Positions 9,151 through 36,905 of a DNA stretch of 64,000 nt are shown here, piece after piece. Position numbers and translations under genes: made by a program. Position 1 is the first letter of the stretch, and every line of letters begins with the position of its first letter. Source of the stretch: Flavobacterium sp. I-STPP5a (GTDB taxonomy: Bacteria > Bacteroidota > Bacteroidia > Flavobacteriales > Flavobacteriaceae); the NCBI RefSeq assembly GCF_009764685.1, contig NZ_VHLM01000078.1:1-64000 (forward strand). Reading direction: 5' to 3'. A model generated the notes under the pieces. It did not search any database and was not told where the DNA came from. It was given only the letters and a program-made list of their open reading frames with translations.

Positions 9151-9243
9151 TCTCCCCTAGCCCCGATGGAAGTGAAAATCCTTTATTGAGGTCCGTTTTT
9201 TTAACCGAATCTTAATAAAGATTGAAGCGTACAGCGGGACAAC
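9151..9243 (+). ncRNA. Structured RNA-like intergenic element, copy A
   Basis: It shares the blocks GAAGTGAAAATCCTT and AAGATTG-AAC/GCG-ACAGC-GGGA with the minus-strand copy at 14868-14945. Between the blocks is a variable hairpin, here closed by CTTTATT/AATAAAG. The outer pair is CCCG/CGGG here and CCAG/CTGG in the other copy, and an inner AATC/GATT pair is common to both. Conserved flanks with a variable apical stem point to a transcribed RNA family. It may be the Flavobacteria 'Flavo-1' motif, but I cannot verify that. It lies between the LRR pseudogene and the 3' end of dprA. Confidence 0.5.
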
Positions 9244-9381
9244 TCGTGTGCTGGGCAAAAATATACTGCTCCTAGAAAAACACACAAATATTTCCGATGA
9301 AACGGCTTTTGAAATGAACTTTAAAGGATTTGACTCATTTTTAAGACGCTATTTGAATAAAAAACAACCGATTGTCAGGAT

Positions 9382-14504: not shown

Positions 14505-15056
14505 AGTTATTTTTAGTTTAATTGATAGTTTCTATTACAGTTTTTGAACCAAACTAGCGAACGATTTAGCAAATCATATTGCCTTTTGTTGACTGCTAGA
14601 TGGCCACTATTTACTGAATCATTCCTAATTTCAGTTTGATATATCAATCTCTTTCGCCTAATTTAAGAACACACCAAAAATTTAATTTGGTTTATGGGCA
14701 CTCAAAACTAAAACAATTATCACAACGGTAACTGCGTATTTTTACGTGTATTTATGATACTATAAAATGAATGGAGATTTAAAAAGGTATTTTTCTTGTT
14801 AAATAAATGCTCTTGCAGGTGAATTCAGAGCGTCCAAAATTTTATTCCTGGGGATTTTTTTGAGAAGCAATTCCAGCTATCCGTTACAATCTTATACGCC
14901 GAAACCCGGCGCATAAGGATTTTCACTTCTACCTGGGCTATGTTATGGTTACCTCAAGGCGTATTACTTACTTTAGGCTACTTATAAACGTTCTTTTTAA
15001 AGATATTAATTCAGAATCAAAAGAGTATCAAACTATTAGCCTTAAATCAAAAAACC
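14505..15056. other. Gap upstream of the tyrosinase gene
   Basis: 552 bases with no gene. The minus-strand structured element B lies at 14868-14945. I see no convincing TAnnTTTG box for the tyrosinase gene within 60 bases of its ATG. Confidence 0.5.
14868..14945 (-). ncRNA. Structured RNA-like intergenic element, copy B
   Basis: Minus-strand partner of the element at 9151-9243. It has AGCCCAGG, GAAGTGAAAATCCTT, a strong apical hairpin (CTTATGCGCCG-GGTTT-CGGCGTATAAG region) and AAGATTGTAACGGATAGCTGG. The apical stem is completely different in sequence from that of copy A while the flanks are conserved, and the closing pair covaries (CCAG/CTGG against CCCG/CGGG). Confidence 0.5.
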
Positions 15057-19508: not shown

Positions 19509-19524
19509 AGTTTCACGTGGAACA
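19509..19524. other. parS-like site downstream of mnmG
   Basis: AGTTTCACGTGGAACA differs from the bacterial parS consensus TGTTTCACGTGAAACA at two positions. It lies 83 bases after the mnmG stop, about 2 kb from the main cluster. Confidence 0.65.
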
Positions 19525-19606
19525 ATTTTAGTACTCAGTATTCAATAACAGTATAAATAAAAATCGAAGGTCAACTAAGACTATATACTGAATAATGAAG
19601 ACTTAC

Positions 19607-21478
19607 TTAACGCCCCATATAAATCAACAATACAGAAATATCACTTGGAGATACACCACTTATTCTGGAAGCTTGTGAAATAGTAACCGGTCTGATTTTG
19701 GATAATTTCTGTTTGGCTTCAATAGACATAGACTTTATTTTTTCATAATCAAAATTCTCAGGAATCTTAACATCTTCGAGTCTCAATAACTTATCTGCAT
19801 TATTTCGTTCCTTTTCAATATAACCAGAATACTTTACTTGAATTTCCGCTTGTTCTAAAATCTCTTGATCTAAATCGTGCTCATCAATATAAACAGTCAC
19901 TTTTTCGAATTTTAAGATATCTTCTAAATCTATTTGTGGTCTAGAAAAAACTTTAAACATTTTATCCCCTTGCGTAATCAATGCAGTCTTTTTAGATTCT
20001 AAAATAGGATTAGCTTCAGATACAGAAACACTAGTCTCTTTAAAAAAGGCAACCATCTTTTCAGACTCTTTTAATTTATGTTCCATTCTGCGCAAACGAG
20101 CTTCAGAAGCAAGACCAATTTCAAATGACATTGGAGTTAATCTAAAATCTGCATTGTCCTGACGCAATAAAGTTCTGTACTCTGCACGTGAGGTAAACAT
20201 TCTATATGGCTCCTCTGTTCCTTTAGTAATTAAGTCATCTATTAAAACCCCGATATAAGCTTCGTCTCTTTTTAAAATCAAAGGAGCTTTTTCGTTGATC
20301 TTTAAATGCGCATTTATTCCAGCCATCAATCCTTGAGCAGCTGCTTCTTCATATCCTGTAGTTCCGTTTATTTGACCAGCAAAAAACAAACCTGATACTA
20401 ATTTCGTTTCAAGAGTGTGCTTCAATTGCGTTGGTGGAAAATAATCATATTCTATCGCATAACCTGGTCTAAAAAATTTTACGTTTTCAAAACCCACAAC
20501 AGAACGCAAAGCTTTAAATTGAATATCCTCGGGTAAAGAAGTAGAAAAACCATTCACATACACCTCACAGGTATTCCAACCTTCAGGCTCAACAAAAAGT
20601 TGATGTCTTTCTTTATCTGCAAAACGATTAATTTTATCTTCAATAGACGGACAATACCTCGGGCCTAAACTTTTGATACGACCGTTGAACATTGGAGAAC
20701 GATCAAAACCTTCTCTAAGGATGTCATGAACATCAAGAGAAGTATACGTCATGTGACATGATTTTTGGAAAGCCAAAGGTTTAGTGAAATCAGAATAAGA
20801 AAACTTATCCGGCTTGGCATCACCCTTCTCTTCATTCATTTTAGAATAATCAAGTGATCGTCCATCAACACGCGGTGGCGTTCCAGTTTTCATTCGGCCA
20901 GATTCAAAACCAACAGCAACGAGATCTTCAGTAATTCCATAAGAAGCACTCTCCCCTGCACGACCTCCACCAAATTGCTTATCACCAATATGAATCAATC
21001 CATTTAAAAAGGTACCATTTGTAAGCACCACAGATTTTGAACGAATCTCCAAGCCTAATGAAGTTTTGATCCCTTTGACTACTCCATTCTCGATAATCAA
21101 CCCACTAACCATTTCTTGGTAAAAATCAAGATTTGGAGTTCCTTCCAGCATCAACCTCCATTCCTCAGCAAAACGCATTCGGTCACTTTGAACTCTTGGA
21201 GACCACATAGCAGGTCCTTTTGATTTATTGAGCATCTTGAACTGAATTGCCGTCTTGTCTGAAACAATTCCTGAATACCCACCGAGGGCATCAATCTCTC
21301 TAACAATTTGCCCTTTTGCAATTCCACCCATTGCAGGGTTGCAAGACATTTGAGCAATGTTCTGCAAACTCATGGTAACCAAAAGTGTCTTCGAACCTAA
21401 ATTAGCAGCGGCAGCCGCAGCCTCAGAACCAGCATGACCAGCTCCCACTACAATAACATCATATTCTTGATAAAACAT
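19607..21478 (-). CDS. mnmG: tRNA uridine-5-carboxymethylaminomethyl modification enzyme MnmG
   Basis: The FAD-dependent partner of MnmE in making cmnm5U34 in tRNAs. It is 623 residues long, the usual family length. FAD motif VVGAGHAGSEAA (residues 10-21); the GidA signatures SCNPAMGGIAKGQIVREIDALGG, NGTFLNGLIHIG and GTPPRVDGRSLDY; and a C-terminal helical domain ending SRISGVSPSDISVLLIYMGR. Four parS-like sites lie in its 5' leader, between it and ybeY. In many bacteria gidA genes sit near the replication origin and par locus. Confidence 0.98.
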   Translation of the reverse strand: MFYQEYDVIVVGAGHAGSEAAAAAANLGSKTLLVTMSLQNIAQMSCNPAMGGIAKGQIVREIDALGGYSGIVSDKTAIQFKMLNKSKGPAMWSPRVQSDRMRFAEEWRLMLEGTPNLDFYQEMVSGLIIENGVVKGIKTSLGLEIRSKSVVLTNGTFLNGLIHIGDKQFGGGRAGESASYGITEDLVAVGFESGRMKTGTPPRVDGRSLDYSKMNEEKGDAKPDKFSYSDFTKPLAFQKSCHMTYTSLDVHDILREGFDRSPMFNGRIKSLGPRYCPSIEDKINRFADKERHQLFVEPEGWNTCEVYVNGFSTSLPEDIQFKALRSVVGFENVKFFRPGYAIEYDYFPPTQLKHTLETKLVSGLFFAGQINGTTGYEEAAAQGLMAGINAHLKINEKAPLILKRDEAYIGVLIDDLITKGTEEPYRMFTSRAEYRTLLRQDNADFRLTPMSFEIGLASEARLRRMEHKLKESEKMVAFFKETSVSVSEANPILESKKTALITQGDKMFKVFSRPQIDLEDILKFEKVTVYIDEHDLDQEILEQAEIQVKYSGYIEKERNNADKLLRLEDVKIPENFDYEKIKSMSIEAKQKLSKIRPVTISQASRISGVSPSDISVLLIYMGR

Positions 21479-21526
21479 CTATATAAAATTTTAATCCTTA
21501 CGGATTGAATTTAAAAATTCAGTATA

Positions 21527-21697
21527 TGTTCCACGTGGAACTAATTAACAATTTAAAATATATTGTGTTCCACGTGGAACTATATAACAGTTGATACTAT
21601 ATTATGTTTCACGTGGAACAATAAAATACTACTAAAAAATTGTGTTCCACGTGGAACGAAATAGAATAAATAAAAGATTAGTGTTCCACGTGAAACA
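21527..21697. other. parS array: five sites at 38-39-bp spacing
   Basis: Five 16-base sites start at 21527, 21566, 21605, 21643 and 21682. Their sequences are TGTTCCACGTGGAACT (two), TGTTTCACGTGGAACA, TGTTCCACGTGGAACG and TGTTCCACGTGAAACA. All contain the CACGTG core and match parS (TGTTTCACGTGAAACA) with at most three changes. The spacers are AT-rich and unlike each other. Four sites lie in the mnmG leader and the fifth is inside the 3' end of ybeY. They are predicted ParB binding sites for chromosome segregation; parA and parB are not in this window. Confidence 0.88.
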
Positions 21698-22097
21698 TAA
21701 CTATCTTTTCATCTTCTTTCTTTCTCATTAATAATGATTCAGAATCACTCTTGTCTTTATAACCGCAATAATGAAGTATACCGTGCGCTAAGACTCTTTT
21801 TAATTCTTGATCAAAACTTACCTCGAAGTCATTAGAATTATCTTGAACACGTTCAATGGAAATGAAAATATCTCCATTTAATTCATTACCTATAGAGTAA
21901 TCAAAACTAATGATATCTGTAAGAGTATCGTGATTAAGGTACTCAAGATTAATTTTGTGAAGGTATTCATCATCACAAAAAATATAATTTATTTCTCCTT
22001 CCTTTTTATTTTCTGAAACTATTACAGCAGACAACCATGTAGCATAACTATCTTCATTGTCTAATATGAACGTGGATTCGTAATTAAAATTGATCAT
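21678..22097 (-). CDS. ybeY: Endoribonuclease YbeY (rRNA maturation)
   Basis: Single-strand-specific metalloendoribonuclease for 16S rRNA 3'-end processing and ribosome quality control. 139 residues. The signature is LAHGILHYCGYKDKSD, where the classical H-x3-H-x5-H has Asp in the third position. I recall the same in other Bacteroidota members, so it is probably still active. DTLTDIISFDY is the conserved mid-protein motif. The last codons (VMFHVEH) coincide with a parS site. Its ATG overlaps the stop of the upstream DUF4175 gene (ATGA), indicating translational coupling. Confidence 0.93.
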   Translation of the reverse strand: MINFNYESTFILDNEDSYATWLSAVIVSENKKEGEINYIFCDDEYLHKINLEYLNHDTLTDIISFDYSIGNELNGDIFISIERVQDNSNDFEVSFDQELKRVLAHGILHYCGYKDKSDSESLLMRKKEDEKIVMFHVEH

Positions 22098-25000
22098 TTG
22101 CTTTTAAAATAAACTTGAACTTTAGTGTTAAAATTAGAGCGCAAAGGTAGGGATTGTCTATTTAAAATCTCTTTACTATTTAAATATTCTAATAAAGCAG
22201 CTGGAACCCTATTTGAACTACCCTTAAATTCTTTTTGATTTGTATCTGATTGTCTTTTTGTATCTTCACCTTGTTCTTGAATAGCTGTCTTAAGCTTGAG
22301 TAGTTCTTGTTTAATATTCAAAACACGTTGCATATTTTCATTATTAAAACCCTTATTAAGCAACTGCTTTTCTAAAGCTTTCATTTGCTCTAAAGCATTC
22401 TGAGCTTTAGCTCCAATGCCTTTATTGTTAAGTTCATTTTGTAGCGACTCTCTCAACTGGCGTTGTTCTTTATAAATATCCATAATATCTTGAGCTTCTC
22501 CCTCACCAGTTTCACCTTTTGATCCAGATTGAGATGATTTTCCACTACTACCCGGTTTAGGGGTGTTACCACTCTTTTGACCTTGCTTCATTTTATCGGC
22601 TAAGCCATCCATCTTTTTAATAATATCTGGAAGTTGCATTCCTTCATTACTTCCGGGTTTAGGCTTACCTTTACCCATACCCGACATCTGTGATTGCATA
22701 CTGCTTAAAATAGAACTTAAAAAATCAGCTAATTTATTAGCGCTCGAAACTGTGTACTGTTGATGAGATAGCCCTTTTGAAATTTGAGCATCGGTAAAAT
22801 TACTAAGTGACTTATCTAAATTATACGACACAGCTCCAATTTCTTTCGTAATGTCATCTGTAAATCTTGGATTTCTAAGTGATATTGCAAACAAACTATC
22901 ATCGGCATATTTGAACTGTTGTTTCAAATCTTGCTGGATTTTAATGTTTTTATTAAACGCAGGTGAACCTGGTTTAAACTTTTTAAACTGATACATTAGG
23001 TCTTCTTGAGTCAATGAAAATGATAGCAAATTATCTAAAATTTGTCTCAACATAGCAACGTCCTCCTGCATTTGTTCTTGTTCAGCAGACTCCATTTCTT
23101 GCGCCATTTCTTGCGCCATTTGTTTCATCTTTTTAGATGCGTTCTTTTGATTTGATTTAGCTTTTACTTTGTTATTTTTTGATAATTCAGAAATAGCTTT
23201 ATTCAATTCCTCATCAACATCTTTATTTTTAGAATCTGAATTTGGTAAAGATAAAGGTGCTTTTAAATCTTTATTCTCTTTAGACAATGCATCCAGTTCT
23301 TTCTTTAAAGAATTAAATTCATCGTTAATCTCTTTCTGGTTTTCGGTTTTATTGAGTTTATCATCATTATATAAATTCTCTTGCTTATTAGCTAATTTTG
23401 AAAGTTGCTCTTGTAGTTGTTCCGCTTTCTTTTCTACATAATATTTTTTTGTAAGCTCAACTAATTGTTCCAAACTCTTAACTTGATTCTTACTGTTTTG
23501 TTTAAATTTTTCTAACTTAGAAAACAATTGATCATTCTGCATTTTCTCCGTTAAGGATTTTAATTCGTCTAATAACTTATCATTTTTATCTAAATCTTTC
23601 TCGGCTTTCTCTAAACGTTTTTGAAGCTCTTCTTTAAAAGGATCTTTCTTTTCCGTTTTAAATTGAGAAAGGTTTTCATTCATTTTTCTTGTAAAATCTT
23701 TCATAGCACCATCCTGTTTCGATTGACGTTGCATAAAATCATCCAATTTTTGTTGGTCTTTAAAATCCAGATTATCCTTTTCTTTGCCTAGTTGTTGCAA
23801 TTTATCTAAAGACGAAAATTGTTTATCTTGTTGCTTTAAAGATTTAGAAAGTCCAGAAACATTACGGGACTGCGACTCTAAAACTTCAGCTACTTTTTCC
23901 TCTTCAGTTACTACCCTATTTGAGAAAATAGAAGACTTTGAACTTTTGAAATTATGCAAAGCATCAGTATCAAAAACTTCAAAATAATATTCATAATCTA
24001 CACATTCAATAACAGGTAAATTGCTAGGAAAAGCAAAGACAAACTGATCAAACGATGCTTTCTTAACAGCAATAGTTCCACGTTTAACCTGCGATGGATT
24101 CTTACGATCATAATAAACAATTTGTAGTTTCGAAAGTCCATAATCATCAGAGACTTGACCAATAACAAAATTCGCACTAACATTGAGACTATCCGGAGCC
24201 TTAGATACCATGATAGATGGAAACTGATCTGCTATTGTGTTAATTTCATAATTGAGTTTCTCAAAATTAGTAACAGCATTATTAGAAGTAGTAATTTGAT
24301 AATCCAGATTTCTAGAAATTCGTTTAGCTAATTGGAAAGTATTATTAGATTTAACGAAAATAGATTTTTGATTATCTTCAATAAAAGCTACAGATTGTGT
24401 TTTAGATGTGTTCAATTTCCATGTAACCACTGTACCTTCAGGAACCATAGCATTACCTGTGCCTTTGATAATTTCAGAATTTTTATTTAGATAACCCGGA
24501 AATTGTAAATACATTTCAAAGTCGGCAATAGAAGGAACTTCAATTACATTCAATTCATAATCTGGGGATAAAACTCCGTTAGCCTCCACGTGAAACAATA
24601 AAGACTGAATAGGTTTTGTAATTTTAAATGAAAACTCTCCTTGGGCATCCTGTTCCATAAAATAACTTTCATTATTTAAAAAAACGATAATGTTTTCAGG
24701 CATTACTTTACCAACTGTTTTCAAACGTAAAGTAAAATCAGAACCTTGCTCTACTTGTAAATATTTGTTGAGAATAATAAATTTAAATGGCGCTGGTGGC
24801 TGAAAAGGGGAACTAAAATTAACAACACGATTTAAACTTTGAGAAATAACAGCACTGTTTCCCGTGAAATAAATAAGAAAGACCAAAATTATAGGAGCTA
24901 ACGCTAAAGGATAAAACTTAGAATTTGCTTTAAAATTAATAGCATTCCCAAAAGGAATTGGAGAAAGTGTATTGGATTTTTGCTCAATAGAAGCTAAAAC

Positions 25001-25378
25001 TAGTTCCGAAGATACTGAAGATTGATCTTGAGATAGCTGTAAAAAATTGATCAATTTATCTTGAACTTCAGAAAAGTGGGTTCCAATTATAGCTGAAGCT
25101 ACTTTATAATCAATACCCGATTTTAATTTAAAAAGCTTAAAAATTGGAATCAAAATAAAACGAAAGAACAAATAAGCTTCTACAATTATAAATAGAACAA
25201 ATAAAAACGTTCTATAACTAGGTTTAAGCCATAAAAAGTATTCAATAAAAAGGGTAAGTAAAAAATAAATTAGACCTAAACCAATAAAGAAAAGTGATCC
25301 TTTAATGAGTTCATTGGTATAATACTTTTTAATAAAAGCTTCTAGTTTATCGTAAATAACATGCTGACTTTTAAGCAT
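22094..25378 (-). CDS. DUF4175 family large membrane protein
   Basis: 1094 residues. Two membrane segments near residues 27-46 and 55-75 and another at about 158-176 anchor the N-terminus. Beta-rich periplasmic-type domains follow (about 190-480), then a long region of charged coiled coil (about 500-780, many KEL/EELQKRLEKAEKD-type heptads). A Gly/Ser/Lys/Gln-rich low-complexity linker and a helical tail end it. DUF4175 is a Bacteroidota family of unknown function; the architecture suggests an envelope scaffold or mechanosensor. It is translationally coupled to ybeY. A parS half-matching site lies in its coding sequence at 24582-24597. Confidence 0.8.
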   Translation of the reverse strand: MLKSQHVIYDKLEAFIKKYYTNELIKGSLFFIGLGLIYFLLTLFIEYFLWLKPSYRTFLFVLFIIVEAYLFFRFILIPIFKLFKLKSGIDYKVASAIIGTHFSEVQDKLINFLQLSQDQSSVSSELVLASIEQKSNTLSPIPFGNAINFKANSKFYPLALAPIILVFLIYFTGNSAVISQSLNRVVNFSSPFQPPAPFKFIILNKYLQVEQGSDFTLRLKTVGKVMPENIIVFLNNESYFMEQDAQGEFSFKITKPIQSLLFHVEANGVLSPDYELNVIEVPSIADFEMYLQFPGYLNKNSEIIKGTGNAMVPEGTVVTWKLNTSKTQSVAFIEDNQKSIFVKSNNTFQLAKRISRNLDYQITTSNNAVTNFEKLNYEINTIADQFPSIMVSKAPDSLNVSANFVIGQVSDDYGLSKLQIVYYDRKNPSQVKRGTIAVKKASFDQFVFAFPSNLPVIECVDYEYYFEVFDTDALHNFKSSKSSIFSNRVVTEEEKVAEVLESQSRNVSGLSKSLKQQDKQFSSLDKLQQLGKEKDNLDFKDQQKLDDFMQRQSKQDGAMKDFTRKMNENLSQFKTEKKDPFKEELQKRLEKAEKDLDKNDKLLDELKSLTEKMQNDQLFSKLEKFKQNSKNQVKSLEQLVELTKKYYVEKKAEQLQEQLSKLANKQENLYNDDKLNKTENQKEINDEFNSLKKELDALSKENKDLKAPLSLPNSDSKNKDVDEELNKAISELSKNNKVKAKSNQKNASKKMKQMAQEMAQEMESAEQEQMQEDVAMLRQILDNLLSFSLTQEDLMYQFKKFKPGSPAFNKNIKIQQDLKQQFKYADDSLFAISLRNPRFTDDITKEIGAVSYNLDKSLSNFTDAQISKGLSHQQYTVSSANKLADFLSSILSSMQSQMSGMGKGKPKPGSNEGMQLPDIIKKMDGLADKMKQGQKSGNTPKPGSSGKSSQSGSKGETGEGEAQDIMDIYKEQRQLRESLQNELNNKGIGAKAQNALEQMKALEKQLLNKGFNNENMQRVLNIKQELLKLKTAIQEQGEDTKRQSDTNQKEFKGSSNRVPAALLEYLNSKEILNRQSLPLRSNFNTKVQVYFKSK
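24582..24597. other. Weak parS-like site inside the DUF4175 gene
   Basis: GCCTCCACGTGAAACA: the right half (CACGTGAAACA) is perfect parS, the left half is degenerate. It encodes FHVEA on the minus strand, so it also has coding constraint. Confidence 0.45.
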
Positions 25379-25514: not shown

Positions 25515-27020
25515 ATGTCTAAACAAGTTCGTGTGCGTTTTGCACCAAGTCCAACTGGACCTTTACATATTGGCGGAGTTCGTACCGCATTATTCAATTA
25601 TTTGTTTGCGAAGAAAAACAATGGTGTTTTCTTTTTACGAATTGAAGATACAGACCAAAATAGATTTGTTCCTGGTGCCGAAGAATATATCATGGAAGCA
25701 TTAGAATGGTTAGGAATTGCTCCTAATGAAACGATTGGTAAAAACGAAAAATTTGGACCTTACCGTCAAAGCGAAAGAAAAGATATATACCAAAAATATG
25801 CAGCTGAATTAATCAATTCAGGCGATGCGTATTATGCATTTGATACCGCAGAAGCCTTAGATGCGGCTAGAAAATTAGAAGAAGAACAAGGAAAAACGTT
25901 TATGTACAATCATACTAACAGAGAAAAATTAGATACTTCTCTAGTAATTTCTACTGAAGAAGCTGCAAAAAGAATTGCTGCTGGAGAACATTATGTAATA
26001 CGTTTTAAAACACCAGTGAATGAAACTTTGCATTTACATGATATTATTCGTGGTGATGTAAAATTTGAAACGAATCTTTTAGACGATAAAGTATTGTTTA
26101 AAAGTGACGGCATGCCAACGTATCATTTGGCTAATATAGTAGATGATCACTTAATGGAAACTTCGCATGTTATTCGTGGTGAAGAATGGTTGCCTTCAAT
26201 GCCTTTACACGTTTTATTGTACAGAGCATTTGGTTGGGAAGCACCGGAATTTGCACATTTACCGCTAATCATGAAACCTATTGGTAACGGAAAATTATCA
26301 AAACGTGATGGAGATAAAATGGGATTCCCTGTATTTCCATTAGATTGGAAAACAGAAGAAGGAGTTTCATCAGGTTATAGAGAGAAAGGATTTTTCCCAG
26401 AAGCGGTCTTAAACTTTTTAGCTTTACTAGGTTGGAACGACGGAACAGATAAAGAATTATTCACATTAGAAGAACTAGTTACAGCATTTGACTTAAATAG
26501 GGTTCACAAATCTGGAGCAAAATTTGATCCTGAAAAAAATAAATGGTTCAATCACCAGTATTTAATCAAACAAGAGGATGCTACTTTAGCAAGAGCCTTC
26601 TCCCCTATTTTGCTTGAAAAAGGTTTTGATGTCGAAGAAACAAAGCTTACTAAAATAGTTTCCTTGATTAAAGAACGTGCCCATTTTGTAACAGAATTTC
26701 GGGAAATGAGTGATTTCTTCTTTGTAACTCCAACCAGTTATGATGAAAAAGCAAGCAAAAACTGGAAAGCTGAAACTCCTGCACTAATGCAAGAATTAAT
26801 ATCTGTAGTGGAGGAAATTACCGATTTCACATCTGCGAATATTGAAACCATAGTAAAAGACTGGATGACGAAAAACGAAATTGGGATGGGCAAAGTTATG
26901 CAACCATTTCGTTTAAGTTTAGTTGGCGCCTTAAAAGGCCCACACCTTTTTGATATTGTGGAAGTAATTGGAAAAGAAGAAACTATTTCAAGAATTCAGA
27001 AAGCAATAGAAAATTTGTAA
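25515..27020 (+). CDS. gltX: Glutamate--tRNA ligase
   Basis: Class I aminoacyl-tRNA synthetase that charges tRNA-Glu. The 501 residues are complete. The HIGH-type motif is PSPTGPLHIGG (residues 11-21), the KMSKS-type motif KLSKR (260-264), and RIEDTDQNR is the conserved glutamate-binding region. The C-terminal helical anticodon domain starts at about residue 340. The start at 25515 follows the -7 box by 15 bases. A terminator follows at 27029-27057. Confidence 0.98.
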   Translation: MSKQVRVRFAPSPTGPLHIGGVRTALFNYLFAKKNNGVFFLRIEDTDQNRFVPGAEEYIMEALEWLGIAPNETIGKNEKFGPYRQSERKDIYQKYAAELINSGDAYYAFDTAEALDAARKLEEEQGKTFMYNHTNREKLDTSLVISTEEAAKRIAAGEHYVIRFKTPVNETLHLHDIIRGDVKFETNLLDDKVLFKSDGMPTYHLANIVDDHLMETSHVIRGEEWLPSMPLHVLLYRAFGWEAPEFAHLPLIMKPIGNGKLSKRDGDKMGFPVFPLDWKTEEGVSSGYREKGFFPEAVLNFLALLGWNDGTDKELFTLEELVTAFDLNRVHKSGAKFDPEKNKWFNHQYLIKQEDATLARAFSPILLEKGFDVEETKLTKIVSLIKERAHFVTEFREMSDFFFVTPTSYDEKASKNWKAETPALMQELISVVEEITDFTSANIETIVKDWMTKNEIGMGKVMQPFRLSLVGALKGPHLFDIVEVIGKEETISRIQKAIENL

Positions 27021-28158: not shown

Positions 28159-28572
28159 GTGCCATCATTATTTTTGAAACTAAAATAAAAAATGAACTCC
28201 TCACCTACTCTTTCATTTTTTTAATAAAATGGTAACCAAAATTATTTTAGCTTTTTAAAAAATAATTTTCACGTGGAAAAACAAAAAAAGTACATTTTCG
28301 AAATTCGTACAGCCTATTGGAACAAATATGTACAAAAAGTAACTGTTTTTACGTCAAAAACTAATTATAACCTCTTGATTGAACGAAATTTTTAAAAACA
28401 TACAAATTGATGACTAAATAAAATTAACGTCTTAAAATTAAAATATAAACGTCAATTTTAATAAATAAAAATAATAATTGTTTAAATTAGAATAGAAATT
28501 AATAATAATAAGAAAACTCCCGATTAAAGGAGTTCTAGTATTGATAATATCTATAATAAAAAAAGTGATTTT
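28159..28572. other. Gap between convergent SPFH and glnS genes
   Basis: 414 AT-rich bases with no gene. They hold a weak parS-like palindrome (28265-28280) and a short AACTCC/GGAGTT hairpin (28515-28534) that may end glnS transcription. Confidence 0.5.
28265..28280. other. Weak parS-like palindrome
   Basis: ATTTTCACGTGGAAAA keeps the TTTCACGTG core with four differences from the full consensus. It lies in non-coding DNA 6.6 kb from the main array, so it may be a low-affinity ParB site. Confidence 0.45.
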
Positions 28573-33197: not shown

Positions 33198-35390
33198 TTA
33201 CTTTATAGGTTCGCTAACTCTTCTTAAAAAATTAAAATCCAATTGTTTTTTAACTAAATCGGCATTTTTAACTTTAACGAAAATTTCATCTCCTAATTGC
33301 AATATCTTACCAGAAGTTGCTCCTGTTAATGCATATTGTTTTTCATCGAAAGTGTAATAATCATCACGTATGTCTCGAATACGAACCATTCCTTCGCACT
33401 TATTTTCGATAATTTCAACATAAATTCCCCATTCTGTCACACCCGAAATCACACCCAAAAACTCTTGATCCTGATGATCTTGCATGTATTTTACTTGCAT
33501 GTATTTGATAGAATCACGTTCCGCATTGGTTGCCAAACCTTCCATAGTTGAGGAATGTAAACATTTGGTTTCATACGTTTCTTCATCTACTGATTTTCCT
33601 CCATCAAGGTAAAACTGTAACAAACGGTGCACCATAACATCTGGATAACGACGTATTGGCGATGTAAAATGAGAATAATAATCAAAAGCAAGTCCGTAAT
33701 GACCAATGTTATCTGTAGAATATTTGGCTTTACTCATACTTCTAATAGCCAGTGTATCAATTAAATTTTGCTCTTTTTTACCATTAACATCAGCCATTAA
33801 TTGATTCAAAGATTTCGAAATATCCCCTTTGTTTCTGAAATCAATTTTGTAACCAAACTTAGCAATTACGGTTTGCATGGCTATTAATTTATCTTCATTA
33901 GGCTCATCATGGATTCTATAAATAAAGGTTTTCTTTTGTTTACCAATGTATTCTGCTACTTTTTTATTTGCCAAAAGCATAAACTCTTCAATCAAATGAT
34001 TGGCATCTTTTGAAACTTTAAAGTAAACTCCTTGTGGTTCACCCGCATCGTCTAAATTGAATTTTACTTCGACTTTGTCAAAAGAGATGGCACCATCAGC
34101 CATTCTCTTTTTTCTAAAAATCTTAGCTATTTCATCCATTTTAAGCGTTGCTGCAACAATTTCTGCAGGAACTTGATATGATGCTCCAGTGATCGAAATT
34201 TCTACAGGAATAACATCTTGTTTCGTTTCTATGATGTGTTGCGCTTCTTCGTAAGCAAAACGTTGATCCGAGAAAATTACCGTTCGACCAAACCACTGGT
34301 TTACCACTTGCGCTTTATCAGTAATTTCAAATATGGCCGAAAACGTATATTTCTCTTCATGCGGACGTAAGGAACACGCAAAGTTTGACAACACCTCAGG
34401 TAACATAGGTACTACTCTATCCACTAAATAAACCGATGTGGCACGTTGATAAGCTTCATCATCAAGGATGGTTCCTTCTTCTAAATAATAAGATACATCG
34501 GCAATGTGAATTCCAATTTCGAAATTTCCATTTTCTAATTCTTTGAAAGACAAAGCATCATCAAAATCTTTAGCATCTTTTGGATCTATGGTAAAAGTCA
34601 ATGTATCACGCATATCACGACGATTGGCAATTTCTTCTTCCGTAATCGAAGTATCTATTTTTTGTGCATAAGTTTCAACTTCAATAGGAAACTCTGATGG
34701 TAAACCGTATTCAGCCAAAATAGCATGAATCTCCGTATCATGTTCACCTGGTTTACCTAAAACTTTAACAACGGTCCCAAACGGACTATCAGCACGTTTT
34801 GGCCAATCTTCAATATGTACCAAAACTACATCACCTTGCTCCGCCTCTCCTATTTTATCCTTTGGAATAAAAATATCAGTATACATTTTTGGATTCGCAG
34901 TAGAGACAAAAGCAAAATTAGCTTGGATATCAATTACGCCTACAAAATCTGTTTTGTGTCGTTCTATGACTTCAATAACTTCACCTTCAGGACGTTTTCC
35001 TTTTCTACGGTTGTACACGTAAACTTTAACAATATCTTTATCTAAAGCATGATTCAAGTTTGCGGTAGGAATAAAAACATCATCCTCAAGATCTGGACAA
35101 ACAAAAAAGGCTGTTTTACGACCCGTCATGTCTATTTTACCTTCGTAATAATCTTGACTAGCAGCTTTTACCAAAAATTTACCTGGTTCCGACTCAATAA
35201 TCTTATTTTGTGAGGCTAAAATCTTTAAATCTTTTATTATTTGATTTCTACTCTCTGTATCATCAAGCTCCAACTTTGCTCCTATTTGTTTATAATTGAA
35301 TGCTTTATTAGCACTTTGCGATAGTATTTTTAATATTTTATCCGTGAAATCTTTCCCTTTCTTTATCGGCTTTCTTAATCTTTTACTCAT
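33198..35390 (-). CDS. rnr: Ribonuclease R
   Basis: 3'-5' exoribonuclease of the RNase II/R family. 730 residues: an N-terminal winged-helix/cold-shock region (1-220), the RNB catalytic domain (about 255-580) with DTLTFTIDPKDAKDFDDALS, which holds the metal-binding Asp residues, HIADVSYYL, GLAFDYYSHFTSPIRRYPDVMVHR and ERDSIKYMQVKYM, and a C-terminal S1 domain (about 640-725). Immediately downstream of it on the same strand is the head-GIN gene. It starts 120 bases left of the DUF2007 gene, which is divergent. Confidence 0.97.
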   Translation of the reverse strand: MSKRLRKPIKKGKDFTDKILKILSQSANKAFNYKQIGAKLELDDTESRNQIIKDLKILASQNKIIESEPGKFLVKAASQDYYEGKIDMTGRKTAFFVCPDLEDDVFIPTANLNHALDKDIVKVYVYNRRKGKRPEGEVIEVIERHKTDFVGVIDIQANFAFVSTANPKMYTDIFIPKDKIGEAEQGDVVLVHIEDWPKRADSPFGTVVKVLGKPGEHDTEIHAILAEYGLPSEFPIEVETYAQKIDTSITEEEIANRRDMRDTLTFTIDPKDAKDFDDALSFKELENGNFEIGIHIADVSYYLEEGTILDDEAYQRATSVYLVDRVVPMLPEVLSNFACSLRPHEEKYTFSAIFEITDKAQVVNQWFGRTVIFSDQRFAYEEAQHIIETKQDVIPVEISITGASYQVPAEIVAATLKMDEIAKIFRKKRMADGAISFDKVEVKFNLDDAGEPQGVYFKVSKDANHLIEEFMLLANKKVAEYIGKQKKTFIYRIHDEPNEDKLIAMQTVIAKFGYKIDFRNKGDISKSLNQLMADVNGKKEQNLIDTLAIRSMSKAKYSTDNIGHYGLAFDYYSHFTSPIRRYPDVMVHRLLQFYLDGGKSVDEETYETKCLHSSTMEGLATNAERDSIKYMQVKYMQDHQDQEFLGVISGVTEWGIYVEIIENKCEGMVRIRDIRDDYYTFDEKQYALTGATSGKILQLGDEIFVKVKNADLVKKQLDFNFLRRVSEPIK

Positions 35391-35509: not shown

Positions 35510-35743
35510 ATGGAAGCATTTAAAACGATTGCTATATTCAATTACGCACACGAAATTGTGGTCATCAAACATTTATTAGAGCAAGAAGCAATTGCTTTTT
35601 TTTTCGAAAACGAAAATCTCATAGCAGTCGATCCGTTTGGCAGTTTTGCATACGGCGGAATCAAACTCAAAATTCATCAAAACGATTTTGAAAAAGTGCA
35701 AGCTCTTTTGGATCACTTGAACAACAATTTGAAAATCGTTTGA
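35510..35743 (+). CDS. DUF2007 domain-containing small protein
   Basis: 77 residues, cytoplasmic. The pattern MEAFKTIAIFNYAHEIVVIK, LLEQEAIAFFFENEN and GGIKLKIHQNDFEKVQALL fits the DUF2007 family (putative signal-transducing protein with a ferredoxin-like fold). Its function is unknown. It is the last gene before the AT-rich origin-like region. A near-consensus -7 box (TATCTTTA) precedes it. Confidence 0.8.
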   Translation: MEAFKTIAIFNYAHEIVVIKHLLEQEAIAFFFENENLIAVDPFGSFAYGGIKLKIHQNDFEKVQALLDHLNNNLKIV

Positions 35744-36473
35744 GATCAATTTTAAAAATTTTTGAATTTTCTTTTTTCAAAGTTGTGAACATATATTTAA
35801 ATAAACAAAAAGAAAAATTAAATTTTAAATCCTTCTTGGTTGTTATTATAGTGTGTTAATAATGGCAATAAATTTTTTAAAAATGATATTGAAAATCAGT
35901 TTTAAGATGTTATTTAGACTTATCAACATACTTATATTAGATTAATCTATTGATTTTAAAATAGTTTCTATTTTTAATTAACAACGGTTGATAATTACAA
36001 ATGAAATGTATTTGTAAATAAGTAATTTTTTAAAATTAGTTAATAAAGTACTTTTGAGTATTGATAACTTTTCTAAAAATTCAGCAAACTAAATTAGGAA
36101 TTAATAAGTCAGTTTTGGATTAGTTATTTTTTTCATTTTACCAAAAAATAGTTCTTATTTTCTATCTCAAGTTATCAACATTTTATGTTAACTTAAAGTT
36201 ATCTGAATATCAAGCATTTGCATTTTGGTATTAACAACGTAAAATTTATAATTTATAATTTTAATTGTCATATTGATTTACAGTTATTTACAATTAATTT
36301 GATATTGTTAATAACTACTAACTACCTTATAATTAATACTTTAAATAAAAATGTTTTTTAACACGTAATAATGTTAATAAGAATCAATTTTCCTCAATAA
36401 ACTTAGCTGTATTTACTCCTTAATAGTAGAATAGTTTCTCTAAATTTGCAACACACAACTTAAAACATACAAA
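35744..36473. other. Candidate chromosomal replication origin (oriC)
   Basis: 730 very AT-rich bases without a gene. DnaA-box-like 9-mers: TTATCAACA at 35920-35928 and 36172-36180 (one change from TTATCCACA); on the other strand TTATTAACA at 35854-35862, 36306-36314 and 36372-36380, TTATCAACC at 35986-35994 and TTATCAATA at 36059-36067. An almost pure A/T stretch (about 36236-36300) could be the unwinding element. The TAACTT-A-AAGTTA inverted repeat lies at 36189-36201. The prevailing gene strand flips across this gap, and the parS array is 14 kb away. dnaA is not adjacent, which is common in Bacteroidota. Confidence 0.65.
36441..36448 (+). promoter_or_regulatory. -7 box (TAAATTTG) for rpiB
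   Basis: TAnnTTTG match 25 bases before the rpiB ATG. Confidence 0.55.
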
Positions 36474-36905
36474 ATGAAAATTTCAATAGGAAACGATCAC
36501 GCCGGACCAGATTACAAAAAGGCAATTGTTGAAATGCTTATCGCAAAAGGACATCAAATAACCAATTATGGAACTGATTCAGTTGATAGTGTTGATTATC
36601 CTGATTTTGGACATCCAGTAGCTACTGATGTTACAGAAGGTAAAGCTGATTTAGGAATTGTAATTTGCGGAAGCGGAAACGGAATTGCAATGACTGTTAA
36701 TAAACATGCTCAAGTTCGTGCAGCTTTGTGTTGGACTAAAGAAATTGCAGTTTTAGCGCGCCAACATAATGATGCTAATATTATTAGTATTCCTGCTCGT
36801 TTCACTTCAATTCCACAAGTATTAGAAATGGTTGAAGCTTTTATTACTACTGATTTTGAAGGTGGCAGACACCAAAATCGTGTCAATAAAATAGCCTGTC
36901 CATAA
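36474..36905 (+). CDS. rpiB: Ribose-5-phosphate isomerase B
   Basis: Interconverts ribose-5-phosphate and ribulose-5-phosphate in the pentose phosphate pathway. 143 residues, the family length. Motifs: ISIGNDHAGPDYK (residues 3-15), the catalytic-cysteine loop LGIVICGSGNGIAMTVNKH (Cys66 by count) and ARQHNDANIISIPAR. First gene to the right of the proposed origin. Confidence 0.96.
   Translation: MKISIGNDHAGPDYKKAIVEMLIAKGHQITNYGTDSVDSVDYPDFGHPVATDVTEGKADLGIVICGSGNGIAMTVNKHAQVRAALCWTKEIAVLARQHNDANIISIPARFTSIPQVLEMVEAFITTDFEGGRHQNRVNKIACP

Follow-up and report, generated by a model that had tools for sequence, protein, structure and literature searches.

Whether replication of the chromosome starts in the gap that lies between rnr and a small open reading frame on one side and rpiB on the other is the question raised by this locus of Flavobacterium sp. 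I-STPP5a. The genome is an 86-contig draft of 3.67 Mb, and the window, i.e. the whole stretch of 64 000 nucleotides analysed here, corresponds to bases 1-64000 of contig C44 (87.6 kb), dnaA being on a different contig. The RpiB protein encoded beside the gap matches those of Flavobacterium tiangeerense and F. erciyesense at every one of 142 residues (100% identity). A sequence-only reading had proposed the gap (35744-36473) as the chromosomal replication origin of this strain, and this is very probably what it is: the proposal is supported by the conservation and spacing of box-like 9-mers, the presence of a single strong copy, linkage to parS and a change in the sign of the GC skew. The gap and its surroundings are as follows.

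35744 to 36473, + strand: intergenic gap with the proposed oriC (five TTAT[CT]AACA, 81% A/T, no inner ATG-initiated open reading frame above 27 aa)
33198 to 35390, - strand: rnr (ribonuclease R), left neighbour (Pfam RNB)
35510 to 35743, + strand: small open reading frame, beside the element in many loci, no Pfam match
36474 to 36905, + strand: rpiB, right neighbour (Pfam LacAB_rpiB)
36441 to 36449, + strand: TAAATTTGC, which from the promoter consensus we take to be the likely -7 element of the rpiB promoter, conserved in 30 genus loci
19509 to 21697, no strand assigned: parS sites, five at 21527-21697 and one at 19509, each with at most one mismatch

The observation of a box cluster in an A/T-rich, gene-free gap is real. 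The exact 9-mers are found at the sites given for them (TTATCAACA at 35920 and 36172 on the + strand, TTATTAACA at 35854, 36306 and 36372 on the - strand), and the two near-matches at 35986 and 36059 also exist and are both conserved in the 88-element alignment described below. The five copies of TTAT[CT]AACA within the 730 bp compare with none of 5000 dinucleotide shuffles reaching five (shuffle mean 0.14), and the only 730-bp stretches of the window with five copies are those overlapping the gap (starts 35651-35851). With respect to composition, 81% A/T is the maximum among the 730-bp stretches of the window, which bears out the richness that had been described, but ‘almost pure A/T’ is a little strong because no pure A/T run exceeds 27 bp (that at 36240). 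No open reading frame of 90 aa or more is present, the longest ATG-initiated ones lying wholly inside being of 27 aa, and no Rfam family is found in the gap at threshold. The least stable 500 bp of the window falls in the gap, so that, at the 500-bp scale, easily melted A/T-rich DNA lies beside the boxes. At the scale of 50-200 bp, another gap near 28400 (about 28386-28560), which is very A/T-rich, easily melted and contains no box cluster, is less stable than the origin gap. Across the 64-kb window TTATCAACA is in excess (8 copies vs 1.6 expected), and two copies lie 195 bp apart within a tRNA synthetase gene (28865, 29060).

The conservation of the boxes was followed in an alignment of 88 elements (77 of 80 named loci, at E < 1e-50, ten further loci and the window); an earlier alignment of the DNA upstream of rpiB had included 30 loci, RpiB being found in 112 of 121 genus genomes. 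Of the 80 named loci, 78 have a profile match upstream of rpiB; the two that do not (L173, L182) offer just 1.9 kb of DNA there, and L144, with 105 bp of upstream DNA only, matches the promoter end. The F. johnsoniae locus (L175) carries the element at rpiB. The positions, with per-box counts that are partly circular because the pattern TTATNAACA was picked from the sequence, are listed here.

35783 to 36314, + strand: conserved core of the proposed oriC, eleven box positions at nearly fixed spacing (88-element alignment)
35783 to 35791, + strand: DnaA-box-like, TTGTCAACA or TTTTCAACA in most relatives (87/87 with at most one mismatch of TTATNAACA, 5 exact)
35854 to 35862, - strand: DnaA-box-like, usually CTATTAACA in relatives (78/87 with at most one mismatch, 7 exact)
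35920 to 35928, + strand: strong DnaA-box-like TTATCAACA (72/87 exact)
35975 to 35983, + strand: DnaA-box-like, TAATTAACA (79/87 with at most one mismatch, 8 exact)
35986 to 35994, - strand: DnaA-box-like, TTATCAACC (60/87 with at most one mismatch, 5 exact)
36013 to 36021, - strand: DnaA-box-like, TTAT[TC]TACA (82/87 with at most one mismatch, 0 exact)
36038 to 36046, - strand: DnaA-box-like (87/87 with at most one mismatch, 40/87 exact)
36059 to 36067, - strand: DnaA-box-like, TTATCAATA (68/87 with at most one mismatch, 1 exact)
36172 to 36180, + strand: strongest DnaA-box-like, TTATNAACA, TTATCAACA in the window (85/88 exact)
36228 to 36236, + strand: DnaA-box-like, CTATTAACA in most relatives (76/87 with at most one mismatch, 3 exact)
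36306 to 36314, - strand: DnaA-box-like (48/81 exact)
36372 to 36380, - strand: 9-mer of the sequence-only reading, without conservation (column conservation there mostly 40-60%)
36240 to 36346, no strand assigned: candidate unwinding stretch (27-bp A/T run at 36240; at 36247, the 100-bp stretch that ranks second lowest in stability in the window)

Thus, of the seven sites originally singled out, six are conserved among relatives and that at 36372 is not, and five conserved positions (35783, 35975, 36013, 36038 and 36228) had gone unlisted. The distances between neighbouring boxes are, in order, 71, 66, 55, 11, 27, 25/26, 21, 113, 56 and 78 bp, and nine of the ten vary by no more than 1 bp, the tenth (36228 to 36306) ranging from 77 to 80. 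Spacings of 66, 11, 27 and 56 are each found in 87/87 elements, as is that of 25 or 26; that of 55 is found in 86/87, those of 113 and 21 in 85/87, that of 71 in 78/87 (70 or 72 in the others) and that of 78 in 71/81 (77-80 in the remainder), and the boxes at 35920 and 36172 are 252 or 253 bp apart in 86/88. The box spacings give no sign of helical phasing, i.e. of the use of one helix face. When TTATNNACA words are counted in the 88 elements with the middle letters left free, TTATCAACA (131) and TTATTAACA (106) prevail, against a single copy of the classical TTATCCACA; those with CA, TA, TT, CT or GA in the middle are 14-49 times denser in the element than in the flanks, those with AA 6 times. 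Mean pairwise identity among the 77 named loci is 0.87 in the boxes and 0.65 in the core outside them, vs 0.43 at four-fold sites of rpiB and 0.50 at 36330-36435, and therefore the core is constrained and the stretch beside rpiB hardly so. Two further segments of the element, GTTTTGGATTA at 36112-36122 and TGAATATCAA at 36204-36213, are conserved genus-wide without being box-like and are perhaps sites of another protein.

The cluster, which is DnaA-box-like by sequence only, therefore goes beyond what chance would give, and the canonical box TTATCCACA is not what it is made of. The near-lack of TTATCCACA is not disqualifying because both DoriC and the BUS search admit boxes that are specific to a species, according to the available text of the source (PMC8287927). 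On the protein side, the DnaA of this strain (L001) carries the signature RDHATV, and the solved chains 1j1v and 8btg have a threonine where it has an alanine. The signature of chain 1j1v, from E. coli, is RDHTTV. The alanine in RDHATV could be related to the non-canonical box TTAT(C/T)AACA, which is a lead.

An origin is expected once per chromosome, and this is what is found with R1, a 113-position sequence model of the core derived from alignment A1 (33 sequences, being 33 of 40 aligned rows, among which L013 and L109 aligned poorly). The I-STPP5a genome contains one strong match (E 1.2e-22; next 1.9). At E 0.01, R1 matches 104 of the 121 genus genomes, with a single match in 103 of the 104 and a second, weak one in G071. 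The 17 congeners without a match count against the origin reading; three of them (G118, G022 and G087) carry the element by a wider profile, and two (G027 and G107) have weak matches beside ybeY. The distance to rpiB is not fixed: in G042, in G099 and in eight named loci inserted DNA separates the element from rpiB, leaving the element end 0.6-3.7 kb off, the largest value being that of G099 (L013), which was missed in the 30-locus alignment.

By Pfam, the surrounding genes are rnr, the small open reading frame, rpiB, a DUF1294 gene and tex; the DUF2007 label that had been given to 35510-35743 finds no support in Pfam, which yields no family for it at E 0.001. The parS array is indeed 14 kb from the gap, and parS is present in 14/14 complete congeners. 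The rpiB-parS distance is 16-20 kb in 12 of these 14, 52 kb in G076 and 74 kb in G022, and in both of the latter the element is away from rpiB. Adjacency to dnaA, common among origins and not required, is not found, in keeping with the original remark: rpiB and dnaA are 0.6-1.3 Mb apart in 14/14 complete congeners, taken as circles, and neither TTATNAACA nor TTATCCACA occurs in the 3.2 kb round the dnaA of I-STPP5a. Two Flavo-1 RNAs (RF01705) are also encoded in the window on opposite strands, about 5.6 kb apart, at 9155-9245 (+) and 14866-14943 (-).

The GC skew switches at the element. The cumulative skew of the window has its minimum at 36502, at the end of the gap. All 11 of the 11 complete congeners in which the element is near rpiB show negative skew over the 9 kb on its left and positive skew over the 9 kb on its right (weakest in G119, +0.015); the minimum is thus found locally, in the window and in these 11 genomes. 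Of the 58 named loci longer than 20 kb, 42 have the minimum no more than 1.5 kb from the element, vs 8.5 expected with random placement; in the other 16 it is farther off than that, which counts against the origin reading. Whole-chromosome skew was estimated for three complete chromosomes (G010, G103 and G119), each from twenty samples of 20 kb: G010 and G103 have their minimum at the gap and their maximum opposite it, with the wrong sign in several samples, and in G119 the minimum comes about 0.26 Mb, or two samples, beyond the gap, which also counts against it.

Nine congeners carry the element at a place other than rpiB (G009, G011, G018, G020, G022, G058, G072, G076 and G080; L233-L239, L241 and L286). 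It is directly before gltX in six (G009, G011, G020, G058, G072 and G080), beside ybeY in G018 and G022, for which the stretch examined does not reach gltX, and 1.5 kb from ybeY in G076, where gltX is 32 kb off. Its distance from rpiB is 11-16 kb in six of the nine, 50 kb in G076 and about 75 kb in G022, and in G018 it is on another contig. A residual match stays beside rpiB in G009, G011 and G080, at the end that contains the promoter-like TAAATTTGC. In the window, a DUF4175-like gene lies between ybeY and gltX; a gene matching it (window 22094-25378) separates ybeY from the element in G009, G011 and G080, and was not found in the searched stretches of G058, G072, G076, G018, G020 and G022. 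On their weak matches beside ybeY, G027 and G107 look moved as well.

In a tree of Rnr, RpiB and Tex, one group (support 0.94) comprises G022, G027, G107, G018, G072, G020, G058 and G076 plus G041, which was not counted as moved, and a second (1.00) comprises G011, G009 and G080 and joins species with the rpiB arrangement (0.98). In the element tree, the elements of the second group join rpiB-type elements with supports of 0.86-0.95, and the placement of those of the first is supported at just 0.05. Two moves out of the rpiB gap are the simplest reading, the alternative being an early duplication followed by differing losses. On balance, we favour the view that the origin forms a self-contained unit of about 500 bp. 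It would have left the rnr-rpiB gap for the ybeY-gltX interval near parS on at least two independent occasions (six genomes, drawn from the two clades, have it directly before gltX), keeping its orientation to the gene block and losing the old copy; with every move the intervening genes would have come to be replicated in the opposite direction, as recorded in their strand-specific mutation bias.

If the element is the origin, the genes between both places must have switched replication direction. The coding-strand GC3 skew of rnr is 0.049 in unmoved genomes (33) vs -0.106 in moved ones (11; one-sided permutation p 0.00025), and that of rnr, lysE and a second glutamyl/glutaminyl-tRNA synthetase gene (glnS) taken together is 0.072 (27) vs -0.087 (7 moved; p 0.00005), in permutation tests that treat related genomes as independent, with an unmoved set including 14 loci hand-picked from the 80 named and with G027 and G107 counted as moved on weak matches. 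For tex, outside the interval, the shift is opposite (p 0.95), and for DUF2807 alone the difference between moved and unmoved genomes is not significant (p 0.07); the values of G119, an unmoved genome, are within the moved range. In G058, G072 and G076 the cumulative skew minimum coincides with the new place, and in G018 and G022 it is 2 kb and 6 kb off the moved element, respectively. In G009, G011 and G080 it is nearer the old place, i.e. between the two in G009 and at rpiB in G011 and G080, which could reflect a recent move or count against the element.

Outside the genus, a whole-element profile was applied to the 28 RpiB loci that scored best among other genera in a family sample of 149 genomes, and 23 of them have a related element upstream of rpiB, vs none of 28 reversed, 140 shuffled and 153 other window stretches used as controls. 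This profile outperformed R1, which matches 13 of 249 family genomes, two of them in the genus; of the 11 other-genus R1 matches, four are just upstream of rpiB and several others far from parS or on another contig. In 11 complete other-genus loci the skew decreases as far as the element and at first increases beyond it, but over the 9 kb on its right it is not clearly positive, and the 20-kb skew minimum is at the element in only 3/11. The element is likely to function as an origin there too.

How far could the same observations be accounted for in other ways? The sequence is 81% A/T, and A/T-rich 9-mers might cluster in it by chance; with the shuffles never reaching five, sequence and spacing conserved over the genus, and profile matches in other genera that are absent from the reversed, shuffled and other window controls, the probability left to this explanation is negligible. 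The gap might instead be a regulatory region of rpiB or of the small upstream open reading frame only, with the DnaA-like sites serving transcription control, as its position directly upstream of rpiB and the conserved promoter-like TAAATTTGC at 36441 would suggest. This is very improbable, given that inserts leave the element up to 3.7 kb from rpiB in G042, G099 and eight named loci, that nine congeners carry it in the ybeY-gltX interval, and that the skew tracks it in G058, G072 and G076.

A somewhat larger, although still small, probability goes to the array being a DnaA-titrating or regulatory locus near the origin, similar to datA, with forks starting elsewhere within the surrounding tens of kb. 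The displacement of several skew minima by 1 kb to some kb, and the minima off the element in G009, G011, G018, G022 and G080, are what such a locus would leave. They have to be set against the switch of skew sign across the element in every complete congener with the rpiB arrangement (11/11), one array per genome in 103 of the 104 R1-matched genomes, the absence of TTATNAACA and TTATCCACA round the dnaA of this strain and the presence in the gap of the least stable 500 bp of the window.

With the gap as the origin, DnaA, encoded elsewhere, would bind about eleven non-canonical boxes (TTAT(C/T)AACA and relatives) over 530 bp; the bound protein would oligomerise and then open the adjoining A/T-rich DNA, and two forks would start, leftward through rnr and rightward through rpiB. 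By analogy with B. subtilis and E. coli, opening would perhaps occur beside the strong 36172 box and the 36240 A/T run.

If this is true, dnaA, at which numbering starts in 6/14 complete congeners, is not the origin in the genus. With the origin defined, the direction of replication, strand bias and read-depth estimates of growth rate could be interpreted correctly, and work on DnaA binding in Bacteroidota would have a point of departure. The moved copies would show, as a natural experiment, how quickly mutational strand bias adjusts to a changed replication direction, and bear on whether chromosomal origins can move as small modules.

The oriC of E. coli and other enterobacteria, with its family-fixed box set and spacing and A/T-rich unwinding DNA, is also not next to dnaA; its box consensus differs from that of the gap, and its array is shorter. 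Clustered boxes are common to the gap and to the unwinding region of B. subtilis oriC (DnaA boxes and DnaA-trios), the boxes of which are TTATCCACA, unlike those found here; in B. subtilis a distal box acts at a range of hundreds of bp and in a helically phased manner, which the available text of PMC6669920 interprets as looping. A BUS unit (DnaA boxes, spacer and DnaA-trios) calls for three or more trios no farther than 16 bp from a box, and in DNA as A/T-rich as the gap the relaxed trio pattern would be frequent by chance. Within the Bacteroidetes, Prevotella intermedia OMA14 has multiple DnaA boxes at the skew transition and dnaA elsewhere, and thus shares with the gap a box cluster at the skew turn and a distant dnaA; the same source, in the part available, calls an oriC away from dnaA common in the phylum, per DoriC (PMC4755523). 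The origin proposed here is therefore of a known kind. Blattabacterium is described as having neither dnaA nor boxes in the available portion of PMC2768785, and for Tenacibaculum an Ori-Finder prediction is mentioned, in the part available, without its place (PMC4759079). Closer at hand, the origin of Flavobacterium enshiense R6S-5-6 was put at gltX, where the skew turns positive (PMC9867689), and that of Algorimicrobium at mnmG by Ori-Finder (PMC12843772); in the window, gltX is at 25515-27020, 9 kb from the gap, and mnmG/gidA at 19607-21478, 14 kb from it. Neither the box array nor the moved copies were found described in the open-licence papers to which the search was confined. Thus, the region is about where others place Flavobacteriaceae origins, and the interesting part is the box array and its moved copies: as far as their available text goes, the papers on F. 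enshiense and Algorimicrobium name an indicator gene, whereas here an element is described, with its boxes, their spacing and a variable place in the same gene block.
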